Origin: a virus
Length of the DNA: 54,593 nt
Virus record (IMG/VR): IMGVR_UViG_3300019360_000011
Location: 1-54,593 of that record
Direction: 5' to 3' (one strand)
The position numbers were made by a program, and so were the translations under genes. Below the pieces are notes generated by a model that saw nothing but the letters and a program-made list of their open reading frames with translations, did no database searches and was not told the DNA's origin. This document shows, in pieces, positions 17,630-54,593 of the stretch (position 1 is the stretch's first letter; every line of letters starts with the position of its first letter).

Positions 17630-17808
17630 GACGTCTTCTCCTCGTAGAGCTTCGTGAGGATCGTGCGTTGACGTTCGCTGAGCCTTGATAGGTCACGCGC
17701 TGAGAGGCTCTCGATGAAGTTCTGTTCCCAGTCGGTAAAGCGGACCCGCCCAGCCTCCATGAGGGTCATGAGCTCGCCGAGCTGGTATCGCTCTGTGTCT
17801 CCACTCAT
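17626..17808 (-). CDS. Small helical hypothetical protein
   Basis: 60 residues, ATG at 17808, coupled on both sides (overlaps of four bases). The pattern LMTLMEAGRVRFTDWEQNFI, then LSARDLSRLSERQRTILTKL, is a compact helical module seen beside phage helicases and exonucleases. It may be an adaptor of the SNF2 helicase or the exonuclease encoded on either side. No enzymatic residues are visible. Confidence 0.7.
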   Translation of the reverse strand: MSGDTERYQLGELMTLMEAGRVRFTDWEQNFIESLSARDLSRLSERQRTILTKLYEEKTS

Positions 17809-18575
17809 CGCTTCTTCCTCTTCTCCTGCTCGGTTCGTACAGCCGCCTTGACGCTCGGCGTAAAGTCGCCGCGCATGAGCCAGTCGAGGTACCCGTCATC
17901 ACACTGAGAGAGCGGCTTGCCGATGTTCTTCTGGCCGAAGTTGACTACCGGCTCTCCGTGCTTGTAGATCAGCTTAGAGTCGGGGTCGATCGCCCCGTCA
18001 GCGGGCTCCTCGAAGTATGTGCGATAGAGCTCTTCCATGCTGTCCGAGAGACCGTAGCGCTCGCGCTGTGCCTGGATCACGCGGAGCGTCATGCGTACGT
18101 CAGCCATCGCGTCGTGGGCACCCTCGTGCTTCTCGCCGAGGTAGAACTGCGCTGCCGCCGTGAGATTCCTCGGCTCGTGACGGTTGAAGATTCGGTATCC
18201 GTCCAGGATACGACCGTTTAGATACTGCTCGGGACGACCACCGACGCGTCTGAACTCACTGGCGAGCACGTCCAGGTCGAAACGCACGTTGTACCCACAG
18301 AAGTCACACCCTTTCAGTCCGCTGGCGAGCTTCGTAACGAGCATCTCGAAGGTCGGAGCGTCTGCGACCATAGCGTCGGTCACGCCATGGATCGCCGTGA
18401 CCTCAGGAGCGATGGGAATCCCCGGGTTGACCAGAGTCTGCCACTCCGTCGTGCTGCTGTTGGGGTACATCTTGACTACTGCGATCTGGACGATACGGTC
18501 AGTCTTTCGACTCGGCCCGGTGGTCTCGAGGTCCAGACCGACCAGAGGACAGTTCAGGTCAAGACCGAGATTCAT
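17805..18575 (-). CDS. DEDDh 3'-5' exonuclease with C-terminal DUF3820-like region
   Basis: 256 residues, ATG at 18575. The exonuclease motifs are clear: ExoI LDLETTG (residues 14-20), TAIHGVTDAM, ExoII GYNVRFDLDVL and ExoIII HDAMADVRMTLRV, giving a DnaQ-like DEDDh site. Residues 205-245 (FGQKNIGKPLSQCDDGYLDWL) match the pattern of the DUF3820 family, often found next to or fused with phage exonucleases. It may proofread for the phage polymerase or degrade ends in recombination. It overlaps the VRR-NUC gene by four bases, so two nucleases are co-translated. Confidence 0.88.
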   Translation of the reverse strand: MNLGLDLNCPLVGLDLETTGPSRKTDRIVQIAVVKMYPNSSTTEWQTLVNPGIPIAPEVTAIHGVTDAMVADAPTFEMLVTKLASGLKGCDFCGYNVRFDLDVLASEFRRVGGRPEQYLNGRILDGYRIFNRHEPRNLTAAAQFYLGEKHEGAHDAMADVRMTLRVIQAQRERYGLSDSMEELYRTYFEEPADGAIDPDSKLIYKHGEPVVNFGQKNIGKPLSQCDDGYLDWLMRGDFTPSVKAAVRTEQEKRKKR

Positions 18576-18931
18576 CGCCGCATCGCCTCTACGATAGCTT
18601 GGACCAGCTCGCTAAGATAGAGGAAGACGTAGTTCTCAGCAGGCTTGTCATTCTGCGACAGCATCATCCATATCTGGCCGCTGGCTCCGAACTTGATCAT
18701 CCCGGAGTAGCCGACACGCCCGAGACGGCCGATAGTGAGCGCCTGAATCCCACGAGTCTTTCCACCAAAAGCCTTGAGCTCCAGCCAGAACGTTCTGCCG
18801 TGCCAGGTGACGCTGATGTCCGGTATCCCGGCGGTCATCACGTCTTCGTGCCGAAAGACGACAGAACCCGGCATCGCCTGGCGTAGCGCCTTGGCCAGCT
18901 GAGCCTGGAGCGTCTTCTCGTTCTTCTTCAT
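18572..18931 (-). CDS. VRR-NUC domain nuclease
   Basis: 119 residues from ATG 18931, overlapping the DUF3310 gene stop as ATGA. AGIPDISVTWHGRTFWLELK carries the PD-(D/E)xK core of VRR-NUC proteins: Asp after Pro, then E-x-K. Glu near the N-terminus (KNEKTLQAQLAKAL) is the usual helix-1 acidic residue. Stand-alone phage VRR-NUC proteins act as Holliday-junction or structure-specific nucleases. It is placed with an exonuclease and an SNF2 helicase, consistent with recombination or branched-DNA resolution before packaging. Confidence 0.88.
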   Translation of the reverse strand: MKKNEKTLQAQLAKALRQAMPGSVVFRHEDVMTAGIPDISVTWHGRTFWLELKAFGGKTRGIQALTIGRLGRVGYSGMIKFGASGQIWMMLSQNDKPAENYVFLYLSELVQAIVEAMRR

Positions 18932-19215
18932 CGAGACGCGGCGAGACGGTCCATCTTCATCTGCTCGGCCGCGTCGATCACCTCGTCGAGAAGTCCGGTC
19001 TCGAGACGACGGATCTCTCGGTCGATGTACCAGCGCGCTTTCTTGAGGTCCTCCAGGACCGGAGCGTCGCTCTTCTTCCCGAGACGCCACAGATACTTGG
19101 TGGCAGAGTAGATGAAGGCGTTCTCGACCCACCCGAGCGCCTCGGCGACCTTGACGTGCTCGAACTGACTGGTCGCGCCTCCGTAGTGCAGCGGGTGGTC
19201 GACTCGTTGGGTCAT
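18928..19215 (-). CDS. DUF3310 family protein
   Basis: 95 residues from ATG 19215, overlapping the ThyA-like stop. VDHPLHYGG near the N-terminus, then AFIYSATKYLWRLGKKSDAP and EDLKKARWYIDREI, is the DUF3310 signature seen in many phages, sometimes annotated as a nucleotide kinase fragment or MazG-like. The predicted fold is helical with conserved His, Trp and Lys. It is translationally coupled to the ThyA-like gene, which favours a nucleotide-metabolism role, but the activity is not established. Confidence 0.85.
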   Translation of the reverse strand: MTQRVDHPLHYGGATSQFEHVKVAEALGWVENAFIYSATKYLWRLGKKSDAPVLEDLKKARWYIDREIRRLETGLLDEVIDAAEQMKMDRLAASR

Positions 19216-20210
19216 AGCGTGCTCCTCGTCTCTTGGAAATGATACTTGCGGCGTCGCTCTAGCCACTCGATGCTCGCACGACACCAGTCCGCCTTCTCGT
19301 GCGTCCTGAGACTGCTGACGATGTCGTCGATCGGGTCTCCCACCCGGTATCGCCGGTGAGCGTCGAGAGTTGCTCGGAACACCTCAGCACCTCTCGGCAC
19401 AGGTTGATCAGAATGCGGTCCGTAGATCGCCTCTCGACACAGGCTGTGGATGCTGAGATGGAGCTCGTCCTTCATCGGGGTAGGACGGACCAGATGTTCG
19501 TACGGGTTTGGATCGCGGAGAGACAGATCCCACAGGTTGGCGATCGTCTTGGTGTACGCATGATAGTTGACGCTCACCTGGGTATATGTGCCGACCTCAC
19601 ACCCGATGAGGCAGGCTACGTACTCCTGCATCATGGAGAAGTGTACGAGGTTGGCGCCGTAGGCACCCCAGACGATGTCGTTGCTACGGCAGAACACGAC
19701 CATGTCCAGACGACCAGCGATGTCTCGCTGGAGAGTCGCGGTGAGGTTGCACGGGACGTCTTTCCCCCACCGTGCCCGGTCCAGATCGTTCGCTGCGTCC
19801 CACATCTGCAGCACCGACCGACGGTCGTCCGGGTTATGACGGAGCCGCCAGGCGATGCGAGACAGCTGGTCCAGACCGAAGTGTGCCCGCCACCGCTTTC
19901 CGTAAGCACCGTGGAGGGTCACCCCATCGTCGCTGTACTCGCGCATCTGCTTGACGTAGCTCAGCAGCGGCGCGAGATCATCTCTGCCGGAGAGCATCCA
20001 GAGAGCCTCGTAGAGGTGGAAAAACGGATTGGCGTCCCTCTCCGGCCAGAAGATGACGCGCTCGATCGGGCAGCTGTAGACCGTCGTCACCGGCCCAGGG
20101 GCCAGAACGACCTCACCGTTGCGACTCGTGCGGTACTGCCCGCATGACCGGAGGAGGTTCACACCAGCGGCCAGGGCCTCGTGTCCGTTTCGTACGCTAA
20201 GGACCTTCAC
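19212..20210 (-). CDS. ThyA-superfamily pyrimidine methyltransferase or hydroxymethylase
   Basis: 332 residues, GTG 20210. The nucleophilic Cys154 is in DVPCN, followed by CRSNDIVWGAYGAN (175-187) and VNYHAY (215-220), matching the thymidylate synthase fold. Asn187 corresponds to the residue that selects dUMP over dCMP. The usual His after the catalytic Cys is replaced by Asn155 (PCN, not PCH), as in some hydroxymethylase members of the family. Because the neighbours are a 5-hmdU DNA kinase pair and a candidate amino acid:DNA transferase, dUMP hydroxymethylase is more likely than plain thymidylate synthase. This is inference; classic ThyA activity cannot be excluded. Confidence 0.85.
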   Translation of the reverse strand: MKVLSVRNGHEALAAGVNLLRSCGQYRTSRNGEVVLAPGPVTTVYSCPIERVIFWPERDANPFFHLYEALWMLSGRDDLAPLLSYVKQMREYSDDGVTLHGAYGKRWRAHFGLDQLSRIAWRLRHNPDDRRSVLQMWDAANDLDRARWGKDVPCNLTATLQRDIAGRLDMVVFCRSNDIVWGAYGANLVHFSMMQEYVACLIGCEVGTYTQVSVNYHAYTKTIANLWDLSLRDPNPYEHLVRPTPMKDELHLSIHSLCREAIYGPHSDQPVPRGAEVFRATLDAHRRYRVGDPIDDIVSSLRTHEKADWCRASIEWLERRRKYHFQETRSTL

Positions 20211-20602
20211 AGGTAGACCTCGCCCTGGTATCGCAGGGCCGTGACGAGCCTCTCGACATGGCTCTTGGTCTTTGAAGACATGATGATCTCGTCTCCACGG
20301 AGTAGCGTCGAGAGCGACTGAGCCCGGTTGAAACCAGCCATCTTGGCGAGCTCCTCTCTCGTGAGACGTGAGCCCAGTATCGCTGTCCTGAACGTCTCGG
20401 TCAGCTTGACACGAGGATCGATCTTTCGTCCCTGCCCACGGCGATTCCCGTGGTGCCCGTTCTTCAGCTTGAAGTGCTTGGAGAGAGCTGACTGGACGAT
20501 GAGAGACAGAGAGGCTCCACGACGATTCGCCTCTTTGTCTAGCGCGTTGCGGAGCGACCTGGTGATGAAGGCTCCAAGAAAGACGTCCCGCCGCTCGCTC
20601 AA
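20207..20602 (-). CDS. Putative DNA-binding regulator (ribbon-helix-helix plus helix-turn-helix)
   Basis: 131 residues. The start is TTG 20602, overlapping the upstream TGA. Residues 10-44 (FLGAFITRSLRNALDKEANR) resemble a ribbon-helix-helix segment. Residues 80-125 (LTREELAKMAGFNRAQSLST, then a short recognition-like helix) resemble a helix-turn-helix. The central linker is very basic (GHHGNRRGQGRKIDPR). It is the best regulator candidate for the dyad operators seen in both early arms, being located within the modification operon, but specific binding is unproven. Confidence 0.6.
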   Translation of the reverse strand: MSERRDVFLGAFITRSLRNALDKEANRRGASLSLIVQSALSKHFKLKNGHHGNRRGQGRKIDPRVKLTETFRTAILGSRLTREELAKMAGFNRAQSLSTLLRGDEIIMSSKTKSHVERLVTALRYQGEVYL

Positions 20603-21426
20603 GGGTATCTCCTCTTCAGACGGTCTCCTCTCAGTGCGCGCTCGTACTTGTCAAACTCGCAGGCCCAGTGCTCGACCTCTCGCATCTCCCAGTGCCGCCA
20701 GGCAGCTGGCCAGTAGAGCGTATCTCGACTATAGGCGAGCAGGGTCTGCATCAGGTCGAGCATCTCGGCCTGCCCGGAGGCTGAGCCGTAGTGGAAATGG
20801 TTCGGGTCATCGCGCAGCACTCTCCCGAGCCCGCGCGCGCATCCCGGGCCTGCCGCAGCCCACGTCATTCGGTCTTCGGCGTCCGCCAGAACAGGAGTCC
20901 AGCGCAGGTCAGAGACGACCTCGTAGGCCATGAAGGACCCGAAGCACTGCAAGGCCTGTAGCTCCCGCCAAGACTCCCTGAGACTGGAACCGATCTCGAG
21001 CTTCGGGATCAGACGCCGTGCCTTACCGAGGCACTGCAAGATCCCATCCAGCTTGTTCATCCCCCACGGGGAGTTGATGATGTAGGCTCCGGTCGTCAGT
21101 GGCCTGACGTCCTTGAGCCGCTTACGAACCACGTGTGTGTCCCAGGTACCAGAGACGAGAAAGTCTCTGATCAGCTGCCCGGTCTCGATCCTGTTGAACC
21201 ATCGGAACGCGACCGTGGAGAAGACCGCGGTCTCTCTCGTCAGATGAGATCTCACGTTCTCACGGAACCAGACCGTCGTCTTGTCGTCTTCTCGATGAAC
21301 GTTACAGAACCGCCAGGCAGAGAGGATGGGGTCGGTCGTCCACGGGACGTCCTCTCCCGCGAACCGTCGGAGCTTCATCCGGTATCTCTCGCGAGCGGTC
21401 GCGAAGAATCGGTCGATCAGGACCAC
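20599..21426 (-). CDS. 5-hmdU DNA kinase, helical domain protein (HMUDK_hel)
   Basis: 275 residues, GTG 21426, overlapping the kinase gene by ten bases. It shows the signature of the helical domain of phage 5-hydroxymethyl-dU DNA kinases: WTTDPILSAWRFCNVHREDD, WFRENVRS, then GSFMAYEVVSDLRWTPVLAD and TWAAAGPGCARGLGRVL, with a C-terminal EVEHWACEFDKYERA. In known hypermodifying phages this domain works with a P-loop kinase to activate 5-hmdU in DNA. Here the two parts are encoded by two overlapping genes, so a split enzyme is inferred. It is the strongest marker that this phage modifies thymine in its DNA. Confidence 0.88.
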   Translation of the reverse strand: MVLIDRFFATARERYRMKLRRFAGEDVPWTTDPILSAWRFCNVHREDDKTTVWFRENVRSHLTRETAVFSTVAFRWFNRIETGQLIRDFLVSGTWDTHVVRKRLKDVRPLTTGAYIINSPWGMNKLDGILQCLGKARRLIPKLEIGSSLRESWRELQALQCFGSFMAYEVVSDLRWTPVLADAEDRMTWAAAGPGCARGLGRVLRDDPNHFHYGSASGQAEMLDLMQTLLAYSRDTLYWPAAWRHWEMREVEHWACEFDKYERALRGDRLKRRYP

Positions 21427-21980
21427 CCGAGTGCTCCCAGAGCGCGCACCGCCGCGAGGTCACGGTCTTGAAACTTCTCGACGGCCACGTTGTTCGTACG
21501 CAGGTGCTCGGCGTTCCTCAGGGTATCGCGCGCGCGGCCGATGGTATTCTTCGGGTTGAGCGGACGTGTGTCACCACGCGCCTCACGTCGCGCACGAATC
21601 CCCTCGAGACACATCTCGATCGGCACGTCCAGGACGATGATGAGTGTTGGAAATCTGGCGGCAGCGGCTGCCGCTCGTCTCCAGTCGCTCTGGACCAGCG
21701 CGCCACCCTCGTAGATGACGTCGTACCCACGCTCGGCGGCTCCGTTCACCTGAGCATAGATGTCGTCGATCCGGTCGATCGTGTCGGCGCCACCGCAGCG
21801 TGTCTCGTAGTGCCCGACGACCCAGAGGTTCGGGCCACCGTCGGCACGGTAACACGTGTAACCGTAGGGCTGCTTGCGGCCGGGCGTCATGGCCGGATCG
21901 CGCTCGGCGTAGCGTTCCATGACCTTACGGACGATCGTGGACTTGCCTGAGCCAAAGGTACCGCGAGGGTTGACGATCAT
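21417..21980 (-). CDS. P-loop kinase, probable 5-hmdU DNA kinase catalytic subunit
   Basis: 187 residues, ATG at 21980 with GAGAGG upstream. GTFGSGKST at residues 7-15 is a P-loop. YDVIYEGGALVQSDWRR follows the Walker B position, and FPTLIIVLDVPIEMCLEGI is the strand-helix before the lid; the lid region RARREARGDTR is rich in Arg. The fold is that of nucleoside and nucleotide kinases. Its overlap with the HMUDK_hel gene strongly suggests that it is the catalytic half of a 5-hmdU DNA kinase. It is preceded by its own promoter and operator at 21995-22023. A free-nucleotide kinase is the alternative. Confidence 0.82.
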   Translation of the reverse strand: MIVNPRGTFGSGKSTIVRKVMERYAERDPAMTPGRKQPYGYTCYRADGGPNLWVVGHYETRCGGADTIDRIDDIYAQVNGAAERGYDVIYEGGALVQSDWRRAAAAAARFPTLIIVLDVPIEMCLEGIRARREARGDTRPLNPKNTIGRARDTLRNAEHLRTNNVAVEKFQDRDLAAVRALGALGWS

Positions 21981-21994
21981 TTGACGAGGCCTCT

Positions 21995-22023
21995 CTTATA
22001 CCTAATTTTAAGGTCAAAGTAAA
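21995..22023 (-). promoter_or_regulatory. Leftward sigma70-like promoter with dyad operator
   Basis: Read leftward, TTTACT (22018-22023) and TATAAG (21995-22000) are separated by 17 bases. The spacer contains ACCTTAAAATTAGGT (22000-22014), an ACCT-N7-AGGT dyad. The -35 box lies in the end of the HD hydrolase gene, and the kinase ATG is 15 bases beyond the -10. It would give the kinase, HMUDK_hel and ThyA-like genes their own regulated start. Confidence 0.7.
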
Positions 22024-22631
22024 GTGTTTTTTGGAGTGTAGATCACGCCACCACCGTTCTGCGTAGCGTCGAGCGTATCGACGAGCTGGTTGAAGCGCGC
22101 TAAGAAGAGATCCTCCGCCTCTGACCAGTCCATCTTGGCCCTCCATCCTGTCTCGGCGAAGACGCGTCCTAGAACTTCTTCCTCCTCCAACGAGACAGGA
22201 GGATACCCCGGAACGCCGAGACCTGCCGTATCGAAGGCATTGTGGTACTCGTAGCGGACCATTGTCTTGTCCCCGTGCTCGACGCCAGGGTCGAGCGCGA
22301 CAGGACACCCGAATCGGGCGTAGATCTGCCGCTGGAGGTCGTCTTCTACCCGGCGATAGAACTCCATCTCCGGGACGCTCTTCAGCCACTTCGTCATGTC
22401 GCCGACGTATGCCTCAGCCGCATCGTGGAGGAGGCCCTGGAGCGGCGGCACGCCGGGGAGAAGAGAGACCCCGACGGAGTGCTGGGCGACGCTGATCGGC
22501 CACCGGCTGTGCCCGGCGAACCGATTGCACAGCGCGAGCGCATGGGCGATGTCAGTGATGACGATGTCGTCGAGCGTCATCGCCGTCGGGTCCACCCGAC
22601 GACCCGAGTGTGTCGTGATGAACGGCTTCAC
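22014..22631 (-). CDS. HD-domain phosphohydrolase (YfbR-like nucleotidase)
   Basis: 205 residues, GTG 22631 overlapping the upstream TGA. The HD metal-binding set is present: His51 in SVAQHSVGVS, His69-Asp70 in LLHDAAEAYVGD with Glu73, and a late Asp in the helical second half. RFAGHSRWPISVAQHS is typical of YfbR/5-prime-deoxynucleotidase relatives. In modified-DNA phages such enzymes can remove normal deoxynucleotides (here dTMP or dTTP would make sense) so that the modified base is used. The substrate is inferred from context only. Confidence 0.85.
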   Translation of the reverse strand: MKPFITTHSGRRVDPTAMTLDDIVITDIAHALALCNRFAGHSRWPISVAQHSVGVSLLPGVPPLQGLLHDAAEAYVGDMTKWLKSVPEMEFYRRVEDDLQRQIYARFGCPVALDPGVEHGDKTMVRYEYHNAFDTAGLGVPGYPPVSLEEEEVLGRVFAETGWRAKMDWSEAEDLFLARFNQLVDTLDATQNGGGVIYTPKNTLL

Positions 22632-23074
22632 GGTACCTCCTCGAGAAGGAACTGCTCAAATGCCTTGTTCTTCAGGAGTTGATGGCCTCGAGCCTCTCGA
22701 GCCACGATGATGAGATCCTTCGGTGACTGACCAGTATGGTACATCAGGGCCAGGACACCGATCAGCGCGCTCCGGTTCCACCCGCTGTCACAGTGGACCA
22801 AGACCGCGTGATACGGGAGTCGACTCGCGACATCCTTAGCGATCGTCCTCACGAGGAATCGATCCATCTTGTTCCCAGAGTCGTGGAGCGGGACGTGACG
22901 ATACTCGATGCCGACAGTCCTGCAGCCTCCAGCCAGAATGGGGTCGTTGATCAGCGCCACGTTCACGACCATCTGGATCTGTCGCTCAGCGAGAGCAGCG
23001 AGTACTCGCTCCGTGTCGATGTGCCTGGTGTGCGGCCGGATGAAGAGTCGGGGATGTAGCGCGTAGAAGTTCAT
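22628..23074 (-). CDS. Dual-specificity (cysteine-dependent) phosphatase
   Basis: 148 residues, ATG at 23074. VLVHCDSGWNRSALIG contains the C-x5-R active-site loop with Cys95 and Arg101, and VPLHDSG supplies a likely general acid (Asp65). The length matches small dual-specificity phosphatases. The target may be protein phosphotyrosine, an RNA 5-prime end, or a phosphorylated nucleotide. Because it lies between a candidate amino acid:DNA transferase and a 5-hmdU kinase, trimming of phosphorylated 5-hmdU is an attractive but untested idea. It is coupled to neighbours by four-base overlaps. Confidence 0.85.
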   Translation of the reverse strand: MNFYALHPRLFIRPHTRHIDTERVLAALAERQIQMVVNVALINDPILAGGCRTVGIEYRHVPLHDSGNKMDRFLVRTIAKDVASRLPYHAVLVHCDSGWNRSALIGVLALMYHTGQSPKDLIIVAREARGHQLLKNKAFEQFLLEEVP

Positions 23075-24066
23075 GGCGTCCCTCGCTTGACAGGGTTGGA
23101 AAAGTCGGTGGTGGCTCTGTAGTCGTAGAGCCCGTCGGACCAGGTGTAACCATGAGCCGAGAGGACTCGACCCAGGTTCTTCAGCCTCTCGCTCGGATCC
23201 CAGCCCTGTATCTCTCCGAGAGCCCAGACCGGAGAGAGCAGAGGACGGACACGCATGTGATCCGTACGGCGTTCTCCCCAGTACTCGGCGACCGTTCGCT
23301 CGTAGGCGAGCTCGCTGTCGAGAGAACGCCCAGGGAACTGACGCTTCGTGCTGAAGCTGGTCTTGTACTCGCAGAGGAGGACCTCCAGCTCGAAGTAAGA
23401 CATCTCTGGGTACATCGCCTTGAGGATACCGGCCCGCTCGTTGGCAAAGTATAGAGCAGACGGAGAGTCGTCATGCACGTCGTAAGACGCGACGTCTGAG
23501 CCGAAGATCAGGTTGAGCCCAGCACGAGGACTCCATCCGCCCTTCGGTCTGATGTCTCTCACAGGTGCAGAAGCCAGCCCAAGACGATACCAGATCTCGC
23601 AGAGCTTGGTCGCCGCGTAACGCCCGACGTGAGGGAGCCGCATGGCGAAGCGCCAGAGCTCATCGAATGACATCCGGTGCATCTCTCCCGACATTGCGGC
23701 GTCAGTCGTCGGGTCAACCCCGTCACAATAGTCGAGGAAGCGATCTCCGTGCGTCGGGTCCAGCCCAACAGTCTTGCGTTCTCGTCTGAACCGGATACCA
23801 TCCCAGTGCTCCCGGACCCACGCGTGGAGCTCAGAAGGACGAGGTGGGGTTGGAAACCGTGTCCAGATGGCCTCGGCGGACGGGACGTTGTACACGCCGA
23901 CGTATAGCGCGGCGCGCCAGACCTTCTCGACGAGCGGGAGGTCTTTGCAGAGGTAGACCACCGCACGCATGTGCGGATCTGGACCACCAGTCAAGCGCTC
24001 GTAGTGACAGAACTCATTGAAGAACTTGAGATGGTTCACCACACCATCCTCGAGAATTTTCGTCAT
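23071..24066 (-). CDS. Candidate amino acid:DNA transferase (ADDT-like)
   Basis: 331 residues from ATG 24066, overlapping the polymerase stop as ATGA. It has features I associate with the amino acid:DNA transferase family of hypermodifying phages: ERLTGGPDPHMRAVVYLCKD near residues 23-42, WRAALYVGVYNVPSAEAIW, HAWVREHWDGIRFRRERK, and MRLPHVGRYAATKLCEIWYR. In those phages the enzyme attaches an amino acid to activated 5-hmdU in DNA. No PLP or radical-SAM tailoring enzyme is visible nearby. The family call is from memory of sequence pattern and should be tested by profile search. Confidence 0.65.
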   Translation of the reverse strand: MTKILEDGVVNHLKFFNEFCHYERLTGGPDPHMRAVVYLCKDLPLVEKVWRAALYVGVYNVPSAEAIWTRFPTPPRPSELHAWVREHWDGIRFRRERKTVGLDPTHGDRFLDYCDGVDPTTDAAMSGEMHRMSFDELWRFAMRLPHVGRYAATKLCEIWYRLGLASAPVRDIRPKGGWSPRAGLNLIFGSDVASYDVHDDSPSALYFANERAGILKAMYPEMSYFELEVLLCEYKTSFSTKRQFPGRSLDSELAYERTVAEYWGERRTDHMRVRPLLSPVWALGEIQGWDPSERLKNLGRVLSAHGYTWSDGLYDYRATTDFSNPVKRGTP

Positions 24067-25895
24067 GCTGCTTTCGCCTCCTGCCAATTCTCTCCGACGC
24101 CGACCGCCCAGAGGAGCGGCACGACGGTCTTCAAGACCTGTGTGTTCAAGATCTCCTCGACCATCCGTGCTGCCTCACGATCAGGCACATCCCCGTTGAC
24201 CTCATCGTGGACGAGGAAGCGAAGCTTGAACCCGGTCTTCTTCCTCGCTCGGTGCAGCATCAGAGCCTTCGTCTTCATCTCGTCGGCGGCAGAACCCTGG
24301 ACGACGCCGTTGAGCGCGGCGTAGGTCGGCATCCCCGGTGGAAATCGGCGACGACGACCGAGCTTCGTCTTCACGTAACCCCGGGACTCTGCCAGGCTCG
24401 AGGTGTACCGGAGGAGGCGCTCCGCCTCGGGGAAGGCGCGGTCGTACACCGCGATGAACCTCTTAGCCTCGCTCTCCCTCAAACCGAGCATCCGAGCGAT
24501 CTTCTTGAGCTGCGCTCCGTAGATCTTCGCGAAGTTCGTGTCTTTCGTCTTCTCCCTGGTGACGCTCGGGAAGATTGGCTTGATCATCTCGTTCATCACG
24601 ATGTTATGGAAATCCGTCCTCGGGTCACGAGCGTATGCCGCCAGGACCTTTGGAGGCTTAGCGTAGTCGGCGAAGAGACGATACTCGATCTGCTCGGCAT
24701 CGGCCGACAACCAGAGTCCCTCACCGGGGACGAAGAGCTCCCGAACGATATAGCCTTGGAGCTCCGTGTCGTTCCCTACCGACTGGAGCTGCTTCTTGCC
24801 AGCCACCTGCTGGATGTTGACGCCTTCGTCCGGGTCCGTCCCGAAGGAGCTGCTGGAGTATCGCCCGCTGCGTGTTCCGCCCTCATCGTCTATCGGCATC
24901 TGATGGAGGCTGTAACGCAGGATCCCGTTTCGGCGTAGCTCCTCCCGATACCTCACTAGAAACTTGCTTCGCAGGCTGGCCAGCGATCGGGCGCGGTTCA
25001 CGAGGTTGACGACCGGGTGGTCGACCTCGCGCATACGCGCGCGACTGAAGGAGATCTTCCCCACCTCTTCCGGGTCGTCGCTGATCGGAGGTGGCAGCTG
25101 TAGGTGCTCGAAGAGACGGATCATGTCAGGACGAGAACGCACGTTGATGTTTAGACCGGTCAGTCGATGGATCTCCCAGAGGGTTGCGACGTAGTCCTGC
25201 TCTGAGCGTGTGAGCCAGAGGTCGAGCTTCTCCTCGTTCAATGGAGCGCCGTTCCTCATCATGTCACAGGTCACGTAGACCAGCTCGTCCTCAAGCTCTC
25301 GGACTGCCTCGAGACCCTCCTGCTGCATGACCGGGCGAAACTTCGCCAAGAGCTCCACACAGAGGAGCGTGTCGCGACGTGCGTACTCAGCCACGTCTGC
25401 AGCATGGTAGTCCCGCATCCGACTCTTGTTCAACCCGACGTCGAGCTTCCCGTAACCGAGATAGTGCTTGGAGACAGCGTCGAGACTCGTCCGTGTCCGA
25501 GTGTCGTCAATCAGAGCAGCGTGGTTCCCGACGTCCATCAGTCGGCAGCCCTGTGCCTCTAGGTCGATGCCCCAGGCATAGGCCATGTTGACGTCAAAGG
25601 GGAGGTTGAACCCGATGACAGTCTTGTCACGCAGCTCCTGTCGCATCCATCGCTTGATGGAGCTCTCGTCAAGATTTCCACCAGCGTGTCCAGTCGGTAG
25701 ATACCAGCTTCGTCCATCGGCAGTGGCGACAGCGACCCCGACGGGGAGGTCTCCGCCCCACCACCGAAGACCGGTGGTCTCTAGGTCAAGATAGACCTCT
25801 GAGACTCCGGAGAGGTCCGGCGGGCTCTGAGGACGCCAGTCGCCGGGGTCGGTGGCCGGGGCGATCTCGAAGAGGCTACGCTGGGCGGGCGGCAC
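24063..25895 (-). CDS. Family A DNA polymerase with 3'-5' exonuclease domain
   Basis: 610 residues from GTG 25895. The exonuclease motif YLDLETTGLRWW is at residues 35-46. Polymerase motif A is DAEQIEYRLFADY, motif B REKTKDTNFAKIYGAQ, and motif C FLVHDEVNGDV. No 5'-3' exonuclease domain is present, as usual for phage enzymes. Residues 5-9, QRSLF, resemble a sliding-clamp-binding motif. The gene starts almost at the predicted transcription start, so its mRNA may have a very short leader. It is the presumed replicative polymerase and, if the modification pathway is right, incorporates 5-hmdUTP opposite A. Confidence 0.95.
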   Translation of the reverse strand: MPPAQRSLFEIAPATDPGDWRPQSPPDLSGVSEVYLDLETTGLRWWGGDLPVGVAVATADGRSWYLPTGHAGGNLDESSIKRWMRQELRDKTVIGFNLPFDVNMAYAWGIDLEAQGCRLMDVGNHAALIDDTRTRTSLDAVSKHYLGYGKLDVGLNKSRMRDYHAADVAEYARRDTLLCVELLAKFRPVMQQEGLEAVRELEDELVYVTCDMMRNGAPLNEEKLDLWLTRSEQDYVATLWEIHRLTGLNINVRSRPDMIRLFEHLQLPPPISDDPEEVGKISFSRARMREVDHPVVNLVNRARSLASLRSKFLVRYREELRRNGILRYSLHQMPIDDEGGTRSGRYSSSSFGTDPDEGVNIQQVAGKKQLQSVGNDTELQGYIVRELFVPGEGLWLSADAEQIEYRLFADYAKPPKVLAAYARDPRTDFHNIVMNEMIKPIFPSVTREKTKDTNFAKIYGAQLKKIARMLGLRESEAKRFIAVYDRAFPEAERLLRYTSSLAESRGYVKTKLGRRRRFPPGMPTYAALNGVVQGSAADEMKTKALMLHRARKKTGFKLRFLVHDEVNGDVPDREAARMVEEILNTQVLKTVVPLLWAVGVGENWQEAKAA

Positions 25896-45085: not shown

Positions 45086-45511
45086 TCAGATGCGCTCCCA
45101 GTTCAACGTCTGCGCCCAGGTCCCGGCGAGGAGTGACGCCTCCTCTAGGAGAGGCCTCTCCAGATACTTCGGGCCGGTGCCTGCCTTCTTGAAGCGGACC
45201 GGATTCCCGGAAGCCTCCGCGATCTTCCAGCTCCGAGGACTCGAGGCCGAGAGATGCTCATGGATGGCGACAGCGTACGGGATCCCGGCTCCTCCGAAGA
45301 CCACCCGCTGCGCGTATCCCTTCTCTGACTTCTCGATCCGACCGCTGTCATGCAGGGTGCCCATGTCGTACGGGACGAGCTGCTGTGCCTTCTGCAGGAC
45401 TCGCTCACACGACTCTTCGACCGCATCGGGAATCTTCGCCTGTAGGCGGTCTCTGAACGCACGGATTCCTCCGGTCAGAGTGTCGTTCGTACGGATGTAG
45501 AACTTGATCAC
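45086..45511 (-). CDS. HK97 gp10-like head-tail joining protein
   Basis: 141 residues, GTG at 45511, overlapping the first glycosyltransferase by four bases. VLQKAQQLVPYDMGTLHDSG is the defining HK97 gp10 motif, with PYAVAIHEHL and KYLERPLLEEA downstream. The product is a tail-completion or neck protein. The sugar cassette is located directly upstream in the same transcript, interrupting the usual neck gene block. Confidence 0.88.
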   Translation of the reverse strand: MIKFYIRTNDTLTGGIRAFRDRLQAKIPDAVEESCERVLQKAQQLVPYDMGTLHDSGRIEKSEKGYAQRVVFGGAGIPYAVAIHEHLSASSPRSWKIAEASGNPVRFKKAGTGPKYLERPLLEEASLLAGTWAQTLNWERI

Positions 45512-46701
45512 GCGGTGACAACCTCCGGTGAGACTCCCAGCTTCTTAGGAGTGAGCACGCTCTTCACGACGTCAGCGAACCGTTCACCGATGTTCTTCCA
45601 GCGGTATCGCTCCTGGAGAACGAGCTCGAGCCCCGCCCCGGCCAGACGCTCACGCTCAGCCTTGTCGGAGTACAGGTGATTCAACGCTGCGACCGTCATC
45701 CCACGATCGGGGACGCCACCGATGACGTTGATGTCGTTCGGCGTGCACGAGACGCTCGAGCACTCGACGAGCCACGCAGCAGTCGCCGCCCACTCCCCGA
45801 GAGCCGACCAGTCCGGGACGATCTGCGGAACCCCGCACGCCATCCCCTCCATATGCGTCAGGCCCCAGCCTTCTCCCTGCGTCGTCGAGAGCATGACGTC
45901 GAACGCGCTGTACATCTCGGCGAGAGCGCGTTCTTCGACTCCAAGACCCATCTCCGGAGAAGAGATGATGAGCCGATTGGAAATCTTGAGGTACCGGCCA
46001 AGCTGCTCGAGGTCGTACCCAGCGTCACCAGTCGGACCGACGTGGAGGAAGAGATATGCATCCCGGACGTCGTGAGTCCGGACCCACTCCGCGAAGTAGA
46101 CCAGCGCAAGGTCCAAGCGCTTCCTCGGCTGGTTCCGACCGACGACACCGACGATGAACGCGTCTCTCAACGCGCCGAGCCGCAGTCGATCACGGACCTC
46201 TGATCGTCGATACGGCTTGTACACGTCGAGGTCGACGCCGAGCGGGATCACGTTCGCCTCTCCGGTGAACCCACCCTGCCGAGCTTGAAAGAGCCCGAAG
46301 TCCGTCCAGAAGACTGCGTTCGCGAGACCGTTCAGGCCAGCGCCTCGACAGTTGAGCCCGTCCACGGCCACCGACGCGACCGCAGGCGTGTTCCCGATCC
46401 TCTTCACGTACTCTGGGATGTTCCACGGATCGTTCGTCACGCACACGACGTCGGGTCTCAGCCGCTCGACGAGCTCTTTCGTCCGCTTCAACCCAAAGGC
46501 GTCACCGCCAGCATACCCGTAGCACGGGTACACCGGCACCTTCAACTTGTGCGGGTCTCCGAGGTAGTTCAGCGCGAGAACGTGCACGTCCCATCCCGCT
46601 GCGACGAGCCCGTCGACATAGGCGTGATTCAACCTCGCGAAGCCAGACGAGACGACTGCATCCCCGATCAACAGTACACGATGTTTGCCAGTGGTGTTCA
46701 C
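45508..46701 (-). CDS. Glycosyltransferase, GT-B fold (GT4-like)
   Basis: 397 residues, GTG 46701. HRVLLIGDAVVSSGFARLNH gives the N-terminal domain. GVVGRNQPRKRLDLALVYFA marks the second Rossmann domain with its donor-binding Arg/Lys, and STTQGEGWGLTHMEGMACGV contains the E-x7-E motif of GT4 enzymes. It transfers a sugar from a nucleotide donor. It is the last gene of the five-gene cassette and overlaps the gp10-like gene and its neighbour by four bases each. Confidence 0.9.
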   Translation of the reverse strand: MNTTGKHRVLLIGDAVVSSGFARLNHAYVDGLVAAGWDVHVLALNYLGDPHKLKVPVYPCYGYAGGDAFGLKRTKELVERLRPDVVCVTNDPWNIPEYVKRIGNTPAVASVAVDGLNCRGAGLNGLANAVFWTDFGLFQARQGGFTGEANVIPLGVDLDVYKPYRRSEVRDRLRLGALRDAFIVGVVGRNQPRKRLDLALVYFAEWVRTHDVRDAYLFLHVGPTGDAGYDLEQLGRYLKISNRLIISSPEMGLGVEERALAEMYSAFDVMLSTTQGEGWGLTHMEGMACGVPQIVPDWSALGEWAATAAWLVECSSVSCTPNDINVIGGVPDRGMTVAALNHLYSDKAERERLAGAGLELVLQERYRWKNIGERFADVVKSVLTPKKLGVSPEVVTA

Positions 46702-47555
46702 GACAAGATCTCCTTCCAGAATCCTTCTGCGATCGTCTTCCAGTCAAATCGACGAAGAACGATCTCTCGCTCCGCCTCGGTGACTGCGTACCACGGGCCA
46801 CTCAAGATCGGCAAGAGCTGCTCCACGAGAGCTGATCCAGAGCACTCTTCGACGAAGACCGCGTGTCCTGCGTACCACTGCTTCATGTCAGAGCGGCTGA
46901 ACACGATCGGACGAGCTCCACACGCGAGTCCCTCCAAGACCGGGAGCTCAAAGCCTTCGACGTAACGCAGCCCAGAGACCCATCGCGCTCGTCCATACTC
47001 CTTAGCCAGAGATGCATCAGAGATCCCGAGCGCCGCGCGCCATCGCGGTGATGGACGCCACTTTGCTCCCGCAACAGCCGCTGGACCGAGATGAAAGACC
47101 TTCATGCGGAGATGATCAGCCGCTAGAGCGACCTCTTCGATCGCCTCAGCACCAGGACCGGTCAAGAACCCACTCGTCACGACCCCGTCACGGTCAGCAC
47201 CGTTTCCCTTGAAGACGTCTCCGTCAACCCCGAGCGGAGCGTGGTAGAAACGGCCGTGGACCGGGAGGTCTCCGTAGTAGCTCCAGACTAGACGAGCTCC
47301 CTGCCAGAAGCTCTGCCAGTCTTGGACTTCTCGCGCTGGGTTCGTCTTCCAGCAGTACTGGATCACCGCGTAGCTCTTCGTGCGCACCAGAGAGCGCGGG
47401 TACCCACCGATCACGTGGCAGATCTGCAGATCAGCGTCACCCGGATCATTCGCGATCGTGACAGTCGGAGGCGCGTAGCGCCTCAACGCGTCGCCAACCC
47501 GACGCATCGCTCGACTCACCGATGCACCAGGGAGCGGATCAACGTAGGCTCTCAC
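46698..47555 (-). CDS. Glycosyltransferase, GT-B-like
   Basis: 285 residues, GTG 47555. YVEGFELPVLEGLACGARPI is the E-x7-E-type donor-binding motif of GT-B enzymes (the E..P.LE.LACG pattern), and FLTGPGAEAIEEVALAADHL precedes the C-terminal Rossmann fold. The length is short for two full domains, so the N-terminal domain may be reduced. It is co-expressed with another GT-B and a GT-A-like enzyme. Confidence 0.83.
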   Translation of the reverse strand: MRAYVDPLPGASVSRAMRRVGDALRRYAPPTVTIANDPGDADLQICHVIGGYPRSLVRTKSYAVIQYCWKTNPAREVQDWQSFWQGARLVWSYYGDLPVHGRFYHAPLGVDGDVFKGNGADRDGVVTSGFLTGPGAEAIEEVALAADHLRMKVFHLGPAAVAGAKWRPSPRWRAALGISDASLAKEYGRARWVSGLRYVEGFELPVLEGLACGARPIVFSRSDMKQWYAGHAVFVEECSGSALVEQLLPILSGPWYAVTEAEREIVLRRFDWKTIAEGFWKEILS

Positions 47556-48250
47556 GCTGGGTGCCTCACCGCGAGCTGTGTCGCGACCGCGATGTTAAAC
47601 CCGACCATCCTGGCGTGTCGACACCAGCCGACCAGAGCCTCGTCTCGGCAGCCGCGCACCCGCTGGATGACCTCCCACCGCATCGCTAGACAGCTCCCGA
47701 CGCTGTCGAGCTCGAGATACGGGAGCCCGTTGATCGCGTGACAAAACGGTGGAAATGGTCCGAAGCGTCCTCCCTTGTATCGGAACGCCCAGACGTCGTA
47801 GAAATTCGCCCCGGCGAAGATCATCGGAGCGATGATGTCGATCCCATGCCGTCGCTCGGCCGCGATGTCGACCAGCGCACCGATAGTCATCGGGTCCCAG
47901 ATCAGGTCGCTCTCGACGTGTACGATCACGTCGTACTCCGGTCCGTCGGCGATCGCTCGAAAAGCGGTGTCGAGAACCTCTGACATCACCGCGAGTCTGA
48001 TCGGGTGCTCGACTGAACCGAGCTGCGGCTTCCCGGTGTTGGCGGTGACCAGCCGTGTCAGCGTTCCGAACTCGCGCGACATCTTGATGATCCTGTGCGG
48101 CGTGTCGTCACGTGAGTCGCCCTCAGTCGCCTGAGCATGGATCAGGTGGCCCGAACCGACATGCCTCTGCAGCATGCTGATCTGCGAGAACCACCTTCGA
48201 ATCTGTTGATCACCGGTGTCTCGGAAAGCAGAGGAGATGAGAATCTTCAC
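47552..48250 (-). CDS. GT-A-like glycosyltransferase
   Basis: 232 residues, GTG 48250. ILISSAFRDTGDQQIRRWFS is the N-terminal strand and helix. VIVHVESDLIWDPMTIGALV contains a DxD-like metal site (ESDL). FPPFCHAINGLPYLELDSVG and LAMRWEVIQRVRG match acceptor-side elements of GT-A families. The enzyme probably adds or extends the first sugar. The exact family is uncertain. Confidence 0.78.
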   Translation of the reverse strand: MKILISSAFRDTGDQQIRRWFSQISMLQRHVGSGHLIHAQATEGDSRDDTPHRIIKMSREFGTLTRLVTANTGKPQLGSVEHPIRLAVMSEVLDTAFRAIADGPEYDVIVHVESDLIWDPMTIGALVDIAAERRHGIDIIAPMIFAGANFYDVWAFRYKGGRFGPFPPFCHAINGLPYLELDSVGSCLAMRWEVIQRVRGCRDEALVGWCRHARMVGFNIAVATQLAVRHPA

Positions 48251-48732
48251 GAGACCTCACCGATCTTCCTGGCCGGGACACCGGCCCAGATCTCACGAGC
48301 GGGGACATCCTTCGTCACGACGGCACCAGCTCCGATCCGAGCACGCTCTCCGACATGGACCCCAGGCATCACGATCGCCCCGGCGAACAGGATCGCGTTC
48401 TTACGGATAACGACTCTCTTCTTCTCGACCAGCTGCTGGTCTTGAGGCGCAGAAGCGCTACAGCTCTCTCCCTCAGGCTTGTTTGAGCCGCTGATGATCT
48501 TCGCCCCGCTCGCCATCGCTGCCCCATCCTCAATGATGGTCTCTCCTCCTCCGATGTTCACGTGACAGAAGCTGGCGATGTGGACGTTTCGCCCGATCGT
48601 GACCCCTTCGCCGCCCTCGATCTTCACGAAGGAGTCGACACGCGATCCGTCTCCGACCTTGACGACAGACGGACGAGTCACGACGATCGGCTGGTACCAA
48701 TCCACCTGCTCTCCCAGCTCGCCGATGATCAC
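48247..48732 (-). CDS. Left-handed beta-helix acyltransferase (sugar O/N-acetyltransferase)
   Basis: 161 residues, GTG 48732. Hexapeptide repeats (GDGSRVDSFVKIEG, IGRNVHIASFCHVNIG, RKNAILFAGAIVMPGVHVGE, RARIGAGAVVTKDVPAREIW) build a left-handed beta helix, ending in AGVPARKIG. His53 in the first repeats is a plausible catalytic base. It most likely acetylates the amino sugar made by the aminotransferase encoded just upstream, as in bacterial N-acetylated sugar pathways. Confidence 0.88.
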   Translation of the reverse strand: MIIGELGEQVDWYQPIVVTRPSVVKVGDGSRVDSFVKIEGGEGVTIGRNVHIASFCHVNIGGGETIIEDGAAMASGAKIISGSNKPEGESCSASAPQDQQLVEKKRVVIRKNAILFAGAIVMPGVHVGERARIGAGAVVTKDVPAREIWAGVPARKIGEVS

Positions 48733-49775
48733 GCCGCGACCTCCGTGAGCACGCTACTGAGCAGCGCGCAGACGCTCTCAACGTCCTTCGTGCCAATCTC
48801 GGCATGGAGCGGCAGGAGCAGTCCGTCTCGCGCGAGCTCCTCTGCGACGGGCATCCGCTCCCCGCCGCGATAGATCGGCTGCGTGTTCAACGCCGGGAAG
48901 ACCGGACGCGTCTCGATCTCGCCCTGACTGAAGAGAGCGTCAGCGACTCTCTGGCGGTCTGAGACCAAGATCGGCATCACCCATTCGACAGCATAAGCGC
49001 TCCGCCACTGGCTGCGTACGTCGAGGAGTCGAGAGTCATACTCAAACCGAACAGCTCGTCGAACGCGTAGCATGTCGTGCAGGCGCTCCAGCTGCGCGAG
49101 CCCGATAGCTGCCTGGAGATCGGTCATCCGATAGTTGAAGCCGAGCACGTCGTGAACGTATCGGCGTGCCGACTGACCCTGACCACGCAGCTTCTTCACG
49201 CGGTCGATCACCGACTCGTCATTCGAGAGTACGGCACCACCCTCTCCGCACGTGATGATCTTGTTTCCGTAGAACGACAAGACGGTCGCGTCCCCGTACA
49301 TCGGGACTCCGTGTGCCTCACACGCGTCTTGCAGCACCCAGGCCCGACTTGGAAATGCCTGACGTCGCCCTGCGGCCTGCGTCCCGTAGAGGTCGACCAG
49401 TATGACCCCAGCCGCGCGGTGCTGCTCAGCAGCCTCTAACGCAGCCTCCACCGGCAGCGTCCACGTCTTCGGATCGACGTCCACGAAGATCGGCGTCGCT
49501 CCACAGTACCTCACCGCGTTGGCCGTCGCGATGTACGAGCACGCAGGAACGATCACTCTCTGCCCAGGCTTCAGCCCGAGCGCGAGCAGTGCGAGGTGCA
49601 GCGCAGCGGTTCCTGAGGCCACCGTCACGGCCGCATAACCGAGCTGCTCGTTGCCGAGTCGCTTCTCAAACCTCTCGACGAACTCTCCCATCGACAGACG
49701 GGTGCTCCGAAGAACCTCAAGGAGATAACGCTTCTCGTTCCCTCGAAAGGACGGCTGTGCGATGTTAATCCTCAC
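48729..49775 (-). CDS. DegT/DnrJ/EryC1/StrS aminotransferase (PLP)
   Basis: 348 residues, GTG 49775 overlapping the head-tail joining gene. VASGTAALHLALLALGLKPG, VILVDLYGTQAAG, and SFYGNKIITCGEGGAVLSND (with the PLP-binding Lys in GNK) are the sugar-aminotransferase signature; GFNYRMTDLQAAIGLAQLER follows. It transfers an amino group to a nucleotide-4-keto or 3-keto sugar. The dehydratase that makes the keto sugar is not in the phage, so the substrate must come from the host. Confidence 0.92.
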   Translation of the reverse strand: MRINIAQPSFRGNEKRYLLEVLRSTRLSMGEFVERFEKRLGNEQLGYAAVTVASGTAALHLALLALGLKPGQRVIVPACSYIATANAVRYCGATPIFVDVDPKTWTLPVEAALEAAEQHRAAGVILVDLYGTQAAGRRQAFPSRAWVLQDACEAHGVPMYGDATVLSFYGNKIITCGEGGAVLSNDESVIDRVKKLRGQGQSARRYVHDVLGFNYRMTDLQAAIGLAQLERLHDMLRVRRAVRFEYDSRLLDVRSQWRSAYAVEWVMPILVSDRQRVADALFSQGEIETRPVFPALNTQPIYRGGERMPVAEELARDGLLLPLHAEIGTKDVESVCALLSSVLTEVAA

Positions 49776-54097: not shown

Positions 54098-54593
54098 CTA
54101 TGTGAGACGATAGCCCAGGGCCGGGATCGGTACGGCGGTGATCGCCGCACCTCCCGATCCAAACGGTGAAGGAAGCGCGGCGAACGCGAAGGCGCGGGAG
54201 ATCCCCACCTGTGGGGCGGCTCCGAAGGTAGAAGGGACCCCGTGGATCGGCCACATGCCAGACAGCGGCAGGCACCGGAGCGTGGCCGCAGCGTCGGAGA
54301 GGTAGACGAGCCAGTAGAGCTGTCCAGGCGTGAGCGCCTGGGACAGCGCGAACGTCTTCACACCCGTCGTGCCGGTGCTGATGCTCCCCGAGTCCGAGAG
54401 CAGCGTAAACGGGTAGATGTCTCCGTCGTTGCCGGTGCTGGAACCACGATTGTTGTACAGGCCGATGCGACCGTTCCCGGCGAGCAGCGTGGTCACCTCG
54501 AACGCGATCTGGTCGATGGTCCCGCCCTTGAACGGGGCCACGAACGGGAAGGCGCGCAGCGTGCCCGCCGATGGAGCCCCGGTCACGAGCGCG
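54098..54593 (-). CDS. Fibre-like virion protein, C-terminal part (same gene as 1..605)
   Basis: This is the continuation of the gene beginning at 605; bases 54471-54593 duplicate 1-123. The C-terminal half contains Gly/Ser/Thr-rich stretches such as NNRGSSTGNDGD and ends in LGYRLT. It has no recognised catalytic motif. The stop lies 13 bases before the start of the head protease gene at 54084, so the two are probably co-transcribed. An internal GTG at 54586 would give a shorter frame but is not needed once the circle is closed. Confidence 0.8.
   Translation of the reverse strand, partial: ALVTGAPSAGTLRAFPFVAPFKGGTIDQIAFEVTTLLAGNGRIGLYNNRGSSTGNDGDIYPFTLLSDSGSISTGTTGVKTFALSQALTPGQLYWLVYLSDAAATLRCLPLSGMWPIHGVPSTFGAAPQVGISRAFAFAALPSPFGSGGAAITAVPIPALGYRLT
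54471..54593. repeat. Terminal overlap of circular contig (right copy)
   Basis: Exact copy of bases 1-123. Joining the two copies restores one 325-residue reading frame that otherwise appears broken at both contig ends. Confidence 0.95.

Follow-up and report, generated by a model that had tools for sequence, protein, structure and literature searches.

Which chemical group might this phage operon attach to thymine? The operon (19212-24066, minus strand) lies directly downstream of polA in the IMG/VR virus record IMGVR_UViG_3300019360_000011, analysed here over its whole length of 54,593 nucleotides (the window). In phages that hypermodify thymidine by way of 5-hydroxymethyldeoxyuridine (5-hmdU), dUMP is converted to 5-hmdUMP, which is incorporated and phosphorylated in the DNA, and the phosphate is displaced by a nucleophile. 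To our knowledge, the modifications known from such phages derive from amino acids. The window operon very probably encodes the core of such a pathway, running through 5-hmdU and 5-phosphomethyl-dU (5-PmdU). The best explanation as a whole, in our view about evenly balanced, is that it makes and installs a hypermodified thymine and that the nucleophile of its transferase clade is a phosphorylated cyclitol or polyol.

The operon and its core enzymes

The record carries an exact 123-bp direct terminal repeat (1-123 and 54471-54593), and is therefore treated as a complete genome that closes into a circle of 54,470 bp. The tightly overlapped operon and its neighbours run on the minus strand from 25895 to 17805, in this order:

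24063-25895, minus strand: polA, DNA polymerase I-type, first gene of the coupled group (phrog_17, 5.6e-87); 4-bp overlap with ADDT
23071-24066, minus strand: putative ADDT-family 5-PmdU DNA transferase of a divergent clade (PF18724, 28.9 bits; hhalign; AlphaFold 2 (AF2) fold)
22628-23074, minus strand: DSP/PTP-fold phosphatase (DSP), active site HCDSGWNRS (PF00782, 7.5e-10)
22014-22631, minus strand: HD-domain dNMP 5'-phosphohydrolase (phrog_318, dNMP phosphatase, 8.9e-42)
21417-21980, minus strand: P-loop 5-hmdU DNA kinase, predicted catalytic protein, Walker A GTFGSGKST (PF13671, 1.2e-8; homologue of PaMx11 gp49 and M6 gp54)
20599-21426, minus strand: HMUDK_hel (hel), predicted helical partner of the kinase (PF18723, 2.4e-42; 46% identity to PaMx11 gp50)
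20207-20602, minus strand: small protein of 131 amino acids (weak HTH_31 match, 0.078)
19212-20210, minus strand: ThyA-fold protein, predicted dUMP hydroxymethylase, catalytic motif VPCN (PF00303, 3.2e-20; phrog_5131, 4e-103)
18928-19215, minus strand: DUF3310 protein (PF11753, 5.2e-8)
18572-18931, minus strand: PHROG-endonuclease-like gene (PHROG endonuclease/helicase families, about 1e-9)
17805-18575, minus strand: DEDDh exonuclease, of the replication group and outside the modification pathway (PF00929, 2.8e-24)

A first-pass annotation, made from the letters alone, had described five coupled genes for thymidine hypermodification through 5-hmdU and a phosphate. Searches against protein families, comparison of profiles and a fold predicted by AlphaFold support this pathway. 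The open reading frames named there were recovered at their coordinates on the minus strand, all open with a TGA stop and mostly joined by 4-bp ATGA-type overlaps; the coupled set is larger than five, taking in polA, ADDT, DSP, HD, kinase, hel, the 131-residue protein, the ThyA-fold gene and DUF3310. Of the DEDDh and VRR-NUC neighbours reported next door, the DEDDh exonuclease was recovered, and VRR-NUC (PF08774) gave no match at E<=1.

The best PDB match of the ThyA-fold protein is a CMP 5-hydroxymethylase (4e-20), and its close relatives in the phage family phrog_5131 are the enzymes of M6, PaMx11, Pam3 and CN1; its predicted activity is that of the dUMP hydroxymethylase in a 5-hmdU pathway. 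The ThyA fold and the PCN motif had both been read correctly, the motif being common to all of these hydroxymethylases and not unusual as first supposed. The P-loop protein is homologous to PaMx11 gp49 (5.8e-38, 39% identity) and M6 gp54 (6.8e-8), and the original HMUDK_hel call agrees with the Pfam profile; together the two would form the 5-hmdU DNA kinase. Their separation had also been thought peculiar, but kinase and hel are encoded side by side as two genes in M6 (gp54+gp55), PaMx11 (gp49+gp50), Pam3 (49+50) and CN1 (13+14). In these phages the modification set likewise lies near polA with an HD nucleotidase. Since a split kinase, PCN and polA/HD proximity are ordinary there, the operon falls within the known kind based on 5-hmdU.

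Several observations touch these smaller genes (IMG/VR contigs are cited as L plus a number). The 'terminase small subunit' label (phrog_800; GenBank entries of M6 gp54, PaMx11 gp49 and CN1 gp13) really denotes the 5-hmdU DNA kinase. The 131-residue protein has a ribbon-helix-helix-like N-terminus (by eye) and a weakly helix-turn-helix-like C-terminus, and its homologues accompany hel and the ThyA-fold gene in L007, L008 and L014. Contigs L009, L013 and L014 (56, 63 and 67 kb) combine HMUDK_hel with TET-associated glycosyltransferases (TAGT), and no P-loop kinase or ADDT was found on them; on this evidence hel may serve more generally as a partner that recognises 5-hmdU, in glycosylation too. 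Adjoining hel in L014 (9476-9955) is a small protein with a weak uracil-DNA glycosylase match (PF03167, E 0.003).

The transferase clade and its phosphatase

The ADDT match to PF18724 is modest, exceeding the cut-off of 26.2 bits. By hhalign the protein aligns with actinophage aGPT-PPlase2 (99.6%, E 6e-24) and with M6-type transferases (97%, E 1e-10). The first solved matches of its AF2 model (predicted local distance difference test, pLDDT, 92.6) are three chains of PaMx11 gp46, the 5-PmdU glycinyltransferase (PUGT, 8z2n; probability 1.00, TM 0.52-0.57), and most of those that come next are HhH DNA glycosylases; as the E-values of the fold matches are only 4e-3 to 6e-3, the weight rests on rank and probability. 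Family cut-off, profile alignment and fold concur with the first assignment in pointing to a transferase of the ADDT/PUGT type. Sequence searches of solved structures with the hel and ADDT profiles gave no useful match.

A tblastn search of 50,697 phage records found no direct relative of the window ADDT, and a scan of genome contigs found none; relatives in IMG/VR link it to the actinophage aGPT-PPlase2 proteins. Its clade has GR(Y/W) in place of the GPW of M6-type enzymes and a conserved C-terminal R274...LGE-x-x-GW module that is absent from the M6-type glycine transferases. Within it, the window protein is sister to the ADDT of L008 (support 100/99) in a four-member clade (100/100). The clade appears to be a divergent, little-known branch of the base-attaching enzyme, and its coupling to a DSP phosphatase appears to be new.

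These features bear on the reading in which the nucleophile is an amino acid, as the first-pass annotation had assumed: a free amino acid would be attached (like glutamate in SP10 and glycine in PaMx11), this adduct would be the final base, and the DSP would only clear unreacted 5-PmdU or some nucleotide. The fold and the Pfam family both match the characterised glycine transferase, and untailored adducts are known in SP10. The window ADDT, however, belongs to another clade, with a C-terminal module that the glycine transferases lack. The phosphatase argues in the same direction: it has no homologue among the M6, PaMx11, Pam3 and CN1 pathway proteins, yet it is near-constant in the window's ADDT clade, where it adjoins ADDT in 27 of 30 contigs.

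The DSP is the most constant partner of this clade. In one contig (L040, 7992-9503) a single reading frame fuses ADDT to a DSP phosphatase domain (CHAGRNRSG), and in the window the two genes overlap by 4 bp, a coupling that the proposed inositol/cyclitol system would call for. The first-pass annotation was right that a phosphatase and an HD hydrolase are present, but the DSP is not merely interleaved. Its Cx5R site is intact, with Cys95 and Arg101 invariant in 21 homologues, and its AF2 model (pLDDT 96.7) matches dual-specificity phosphatases (DUSPs) in Foldseek (E 1e-9).

Candidate nucleophiles and the window's own product

IMG/VR was scanned with ADDT, hel, Ino1 and L015 SPASM proteins, and neighbouring genes were classified by profiles. 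Among the 30 ADDT-clade contigs counted, 13 carry Ino1, usually in the position just upstream of ADDT, whose start it overlaps (L027, L028, L040, L042, L047, L049, L050, L053-L055, L058, L063 and L064). L063 and L064 entered through the Ino1 query, so that Ino1-independent searches give 11 of 28. The L028 protein matches M. tuberculosis Ino1 over its full length (454 bits, E 4e-135) and is a true myo-inositol-3-phosphate synthase. The reverse search, from Ino1 alone, returned 13 viral contigs: an ADDT homologue stands beside Ino1 in 12, and the thirteenth begins inside Ino1. A second Ino1 query gave the identical contig set.

Four of these 12 contigs (L067, L068, L069 and L070) carry a second, distant ADDT lineage, in each case beside Ino1; a small HAD-like protein and a P-loop kinase-like gene follow Ino1 in L067, L068 and L070, where no DSP was seen. 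Ino1 also occurs inside a queuosine-type gene cluster in Stenotrophomonas Menderavirus phages (e.g., NC_048802.1, 28981-30231) and in the replication region of Caulobacter phage Cr30, with no annotated ADDT nearby in either case.

Seven other contigs of the 30, including the window's nearest relatives, carry a radical S-adenosylmethionine (SAM)/SPASM gene, and on none of the 30 do Ino1 and this gene occur together. The best solved relative of the SPASM protein is BtrN, the aminocyclitol enzyme 2-deoxy-scyllo-inosamine dehydrogenase (E 2e-18). In L048, L051 and L052 its gene sits exactly at the Ino1 position of sister sequences; in L008, L015 and L023 it lies beside ADDT or its DSP, L015 and L023 carrying a glycosyltransferase-like gene as well. 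The scan with the L015 SPASM protein returned previously found contigs only. The SPASM proteins of L008 (1018-1995), L015 (4913-5902) and L023 (11405-12403) have an unusual CX11CX2C cluster motif (GCSMRFGSGSGGLCHFCG in L008), and that of L048 has CX3CX2C. In L032, ADDT is followed by a Gfo/Idh/MocA dehydrogenase. Ino1, the BtrN-like protein and the Gfo/Idh/MocA dehydrogenase are unrelated and share a cyclitol theme, a further argument against a free amino acid. Another tailoring combination is seen in L011/L012, where two tandem kinases, a weakly PALP-like pyridoxal phosphate (PLP) protein and a methyltransferase-like protein accompany a strong PF18724 ADDT (1.8e-19).

Linked in this way to Ino1, a BtrN-like radical-SAM enzyme and the DSP, the clade is at least as likely to use a cyclitol or polyol as an amino acid. 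We propose, tentatively and at somewhat below an even chance, that the clade joins to 5-PmdU not an amino acid but a cyclitol, either myo-inositol or an oxidised or aminated one of the BtrN type; this would arrive as a phosphate, the DSP would remove the phosphate, and the result would be inositol-decorated DNA. For the window phage itself, a cyclitol or polyol nucleophile falls only just short of an even chance. Attachment of a free amino acid is a serious minority possibility, because amino acids are the substrates of the characterised family members and no cyclitol gene lies in the window.

Several considerations weigh against a cyclitol. The window lacks both Ino1 and the radical-SAM gene. 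Near-copies occur among the contigs (L015/L024, L048/L051/L052 and L049/L050), so that the 30 are not 30 independent events. The BtrN match lies mostly in the C-terminal part, and the SPASM domain is a common one. The co-location of Ino1 could reflect another use of inositol phosphate, and the fold search with the DSP yields a fold, not a substrate. What is known of the clade members comes from sequence and fold.

What, then, would the window phage make? Tailoring enzymes are common but not universal in 5-hmdU-derived pathways, SP10 being without one. The first-pass annotation had noted that the operon has no PLP or radical-SAM tailoring enzyme, and this extends to the genome. Genome-wide family searches found neither radical SAM nor GNAT proteins, and the tailoring proteins of M6, PaMx11 and Pam3 and the L008/L015 SPASM protein had no tblastn match in the genome (best E 0.016, a chance match); no known tailoring enzyme (radical SAM, PLP decarboxylase, FAD lyase or acetyltransferase) was found in it. 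Ino1, which the proposed inositol/cyclitol system would place beside ADDT, is absent from the window genome, and it was not found on any contig of the window's four-member ADDT clade, some of these contigs being fragments. The other three members of that clade carry the SPASM gene, which by parsimony was lost in the window lineage.

Such a loss might have left a degenerate pathway, in which the DNA would contain mainly 5-hmdU, the DSP would revert 5-PmdU and no hypermodified base would be made. The nesting of the window in a clade whose other members keep the radical-SAM gene speaks for it, but intact copies of ADDT, kinase, hel and DSP are present, which retain the conserved residues and whose genes overlap at their junctions, and the L006 and L026 sequences also lack both accessory genes and keep the core. 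We consider this outcome improbable.

The genome does hold one PLP enzyme, a DegT-family protein (48729-49775) that is perosamine synthetase-like (E 5e-64 to PDB 3bn1). It belongs to a five-gene cassette (45508-49775, minus strand) between the head-tail connector and tail genes, together with a hexapeptide acyltransferase and three glycosyltransferase-like proteins; the cassette possibly serves virion glycosylation. As a base-tailoring enzyme the DegT protein was set aside, given its likeness to perosamine synthetase and its place in the structural module. The cassette has the PLP aminotransferase, acyltransferase and glycosyltransferase-like genes that might provide an amino-sugar ending on DNA. 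It lies, however, 20 kb from the operon among structural genes, and virion or lipopolysaccharide glycosylation is a simpler use for a perosamine synthetase-like set, which makes an amino-sugar ending very improbable.

From the enzyme families, gene coupling, clade membership and gene absences seen in sequence and fold, we infer the order of steps, the nucleophile and the phosphatase substrate as follows. The ThyA-fold enzyme would convert dUMP to 5-hmdUMP, the HD enzyme would clear competing dTMP, and 5-hmdU would enter the DNA. Once there, some 5-hmdU would be phosphorylated to 5-PmdU by the kinase and its helical partner acting on the duplex, and the ADDT-family enzyme would swap the phosphate for a small-molecule nucleophile. 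In this clade that nucleophile would most likely be the phosphate of a cyclitol or another polyol, which in the relatives with Ino1 would be inositol phosphate; the DSP would most likely strip this phosphate group, before or after attachment. The BtrN-like radical-SAM gene of its nearest relatives would have disappeared from the window phage or never have been there; as the phage keeps the transferase and phosphatase and has neither accessory gene, the nucleophile would be a host-made metabolite. Its own product is probably an untailored adduct.

If the clade does install inositol or another cyclitol, phage DNA chemistry would be widened to sugar alcohols by the 5-hmdU/ADDT route, the presence of an inositol-phosphate synthase beside replication genes in some phages would be accounted for, and the phosphatase would be a new core component. 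Hypermodified bases of this type stop restriction enzymes from cutting, and any new one can serve as a chemical handle for work on DNA. The window operon is a minimal form of the clade, with no accessory synthesis or tailoring genes, and is thus a simple system for identifying the nucleophile. Inositol-decorated DNA would be a class of nucleobase modification for which no report was found in the literature searched; no link between inositol and hypermodified DNA was found there, and an earlier notice is possible in Lee et al. 2018, Lee et al. 2022 and Wen et al. 2024.

Comparison with known systems

The PaMx11 pathway comprises gp46 (PUGT), gp47 (FAD), gp48 (GNAT), gp49/50 (kinase and hel), gp51 (dUMP hydroxymethylase) and gp52 (HD). 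Its core enzymes are those of the window, and its transferase matches the window ADDT in fold, but belongs to another clade (no phmmer match to the window ADDT); the window adds the DSP phosphatase and lacks the FAD lyase and acetyltransferase. The M6 pathway (5-NedU; gp51-gp59) resembles the window in its core enzymes, split kinase/hel, PCN hydroxymethylase and adjacent polA. It differs in its radical-SAM (gp53) and PLP (gp52) tailoring, its glycine-type ADDT and its lack of a DSP.

The nearest annotated ADDT relatives, the actinophage aGPT-PPlase2 proteins (Gordonia CaiB gp3 and Rhodococcus Tonitrus gp6), have the LGE-x-x-GW motif in common with the window. Their operons differ, with oxidoreductase/TET-JBP-like and ParB-like genes at the genome start and no DSP or Ino1 annotated. 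The IMG/VR contigs with Ino1, ADDT, DSP and kinase (in some arrangements followed by the ThyA-fold gene, HD and polA) share the window's ADDT clade, DSP and kinase, and most have the hydroxymethylase; unlike the window, they carry Ino1. L008, L015/L024 and L023 have the ADDTs closest to the window's and an equal gene set, to which, unlike the window, they add the BtrN-like SPASM radical-SAM gene. A polyol-type hypermodified uracil has a precedent in SP-15, whose dihydroxypentyluracil bears glucose and phosphoglucuronate and is made by a different route (PMC5977210).

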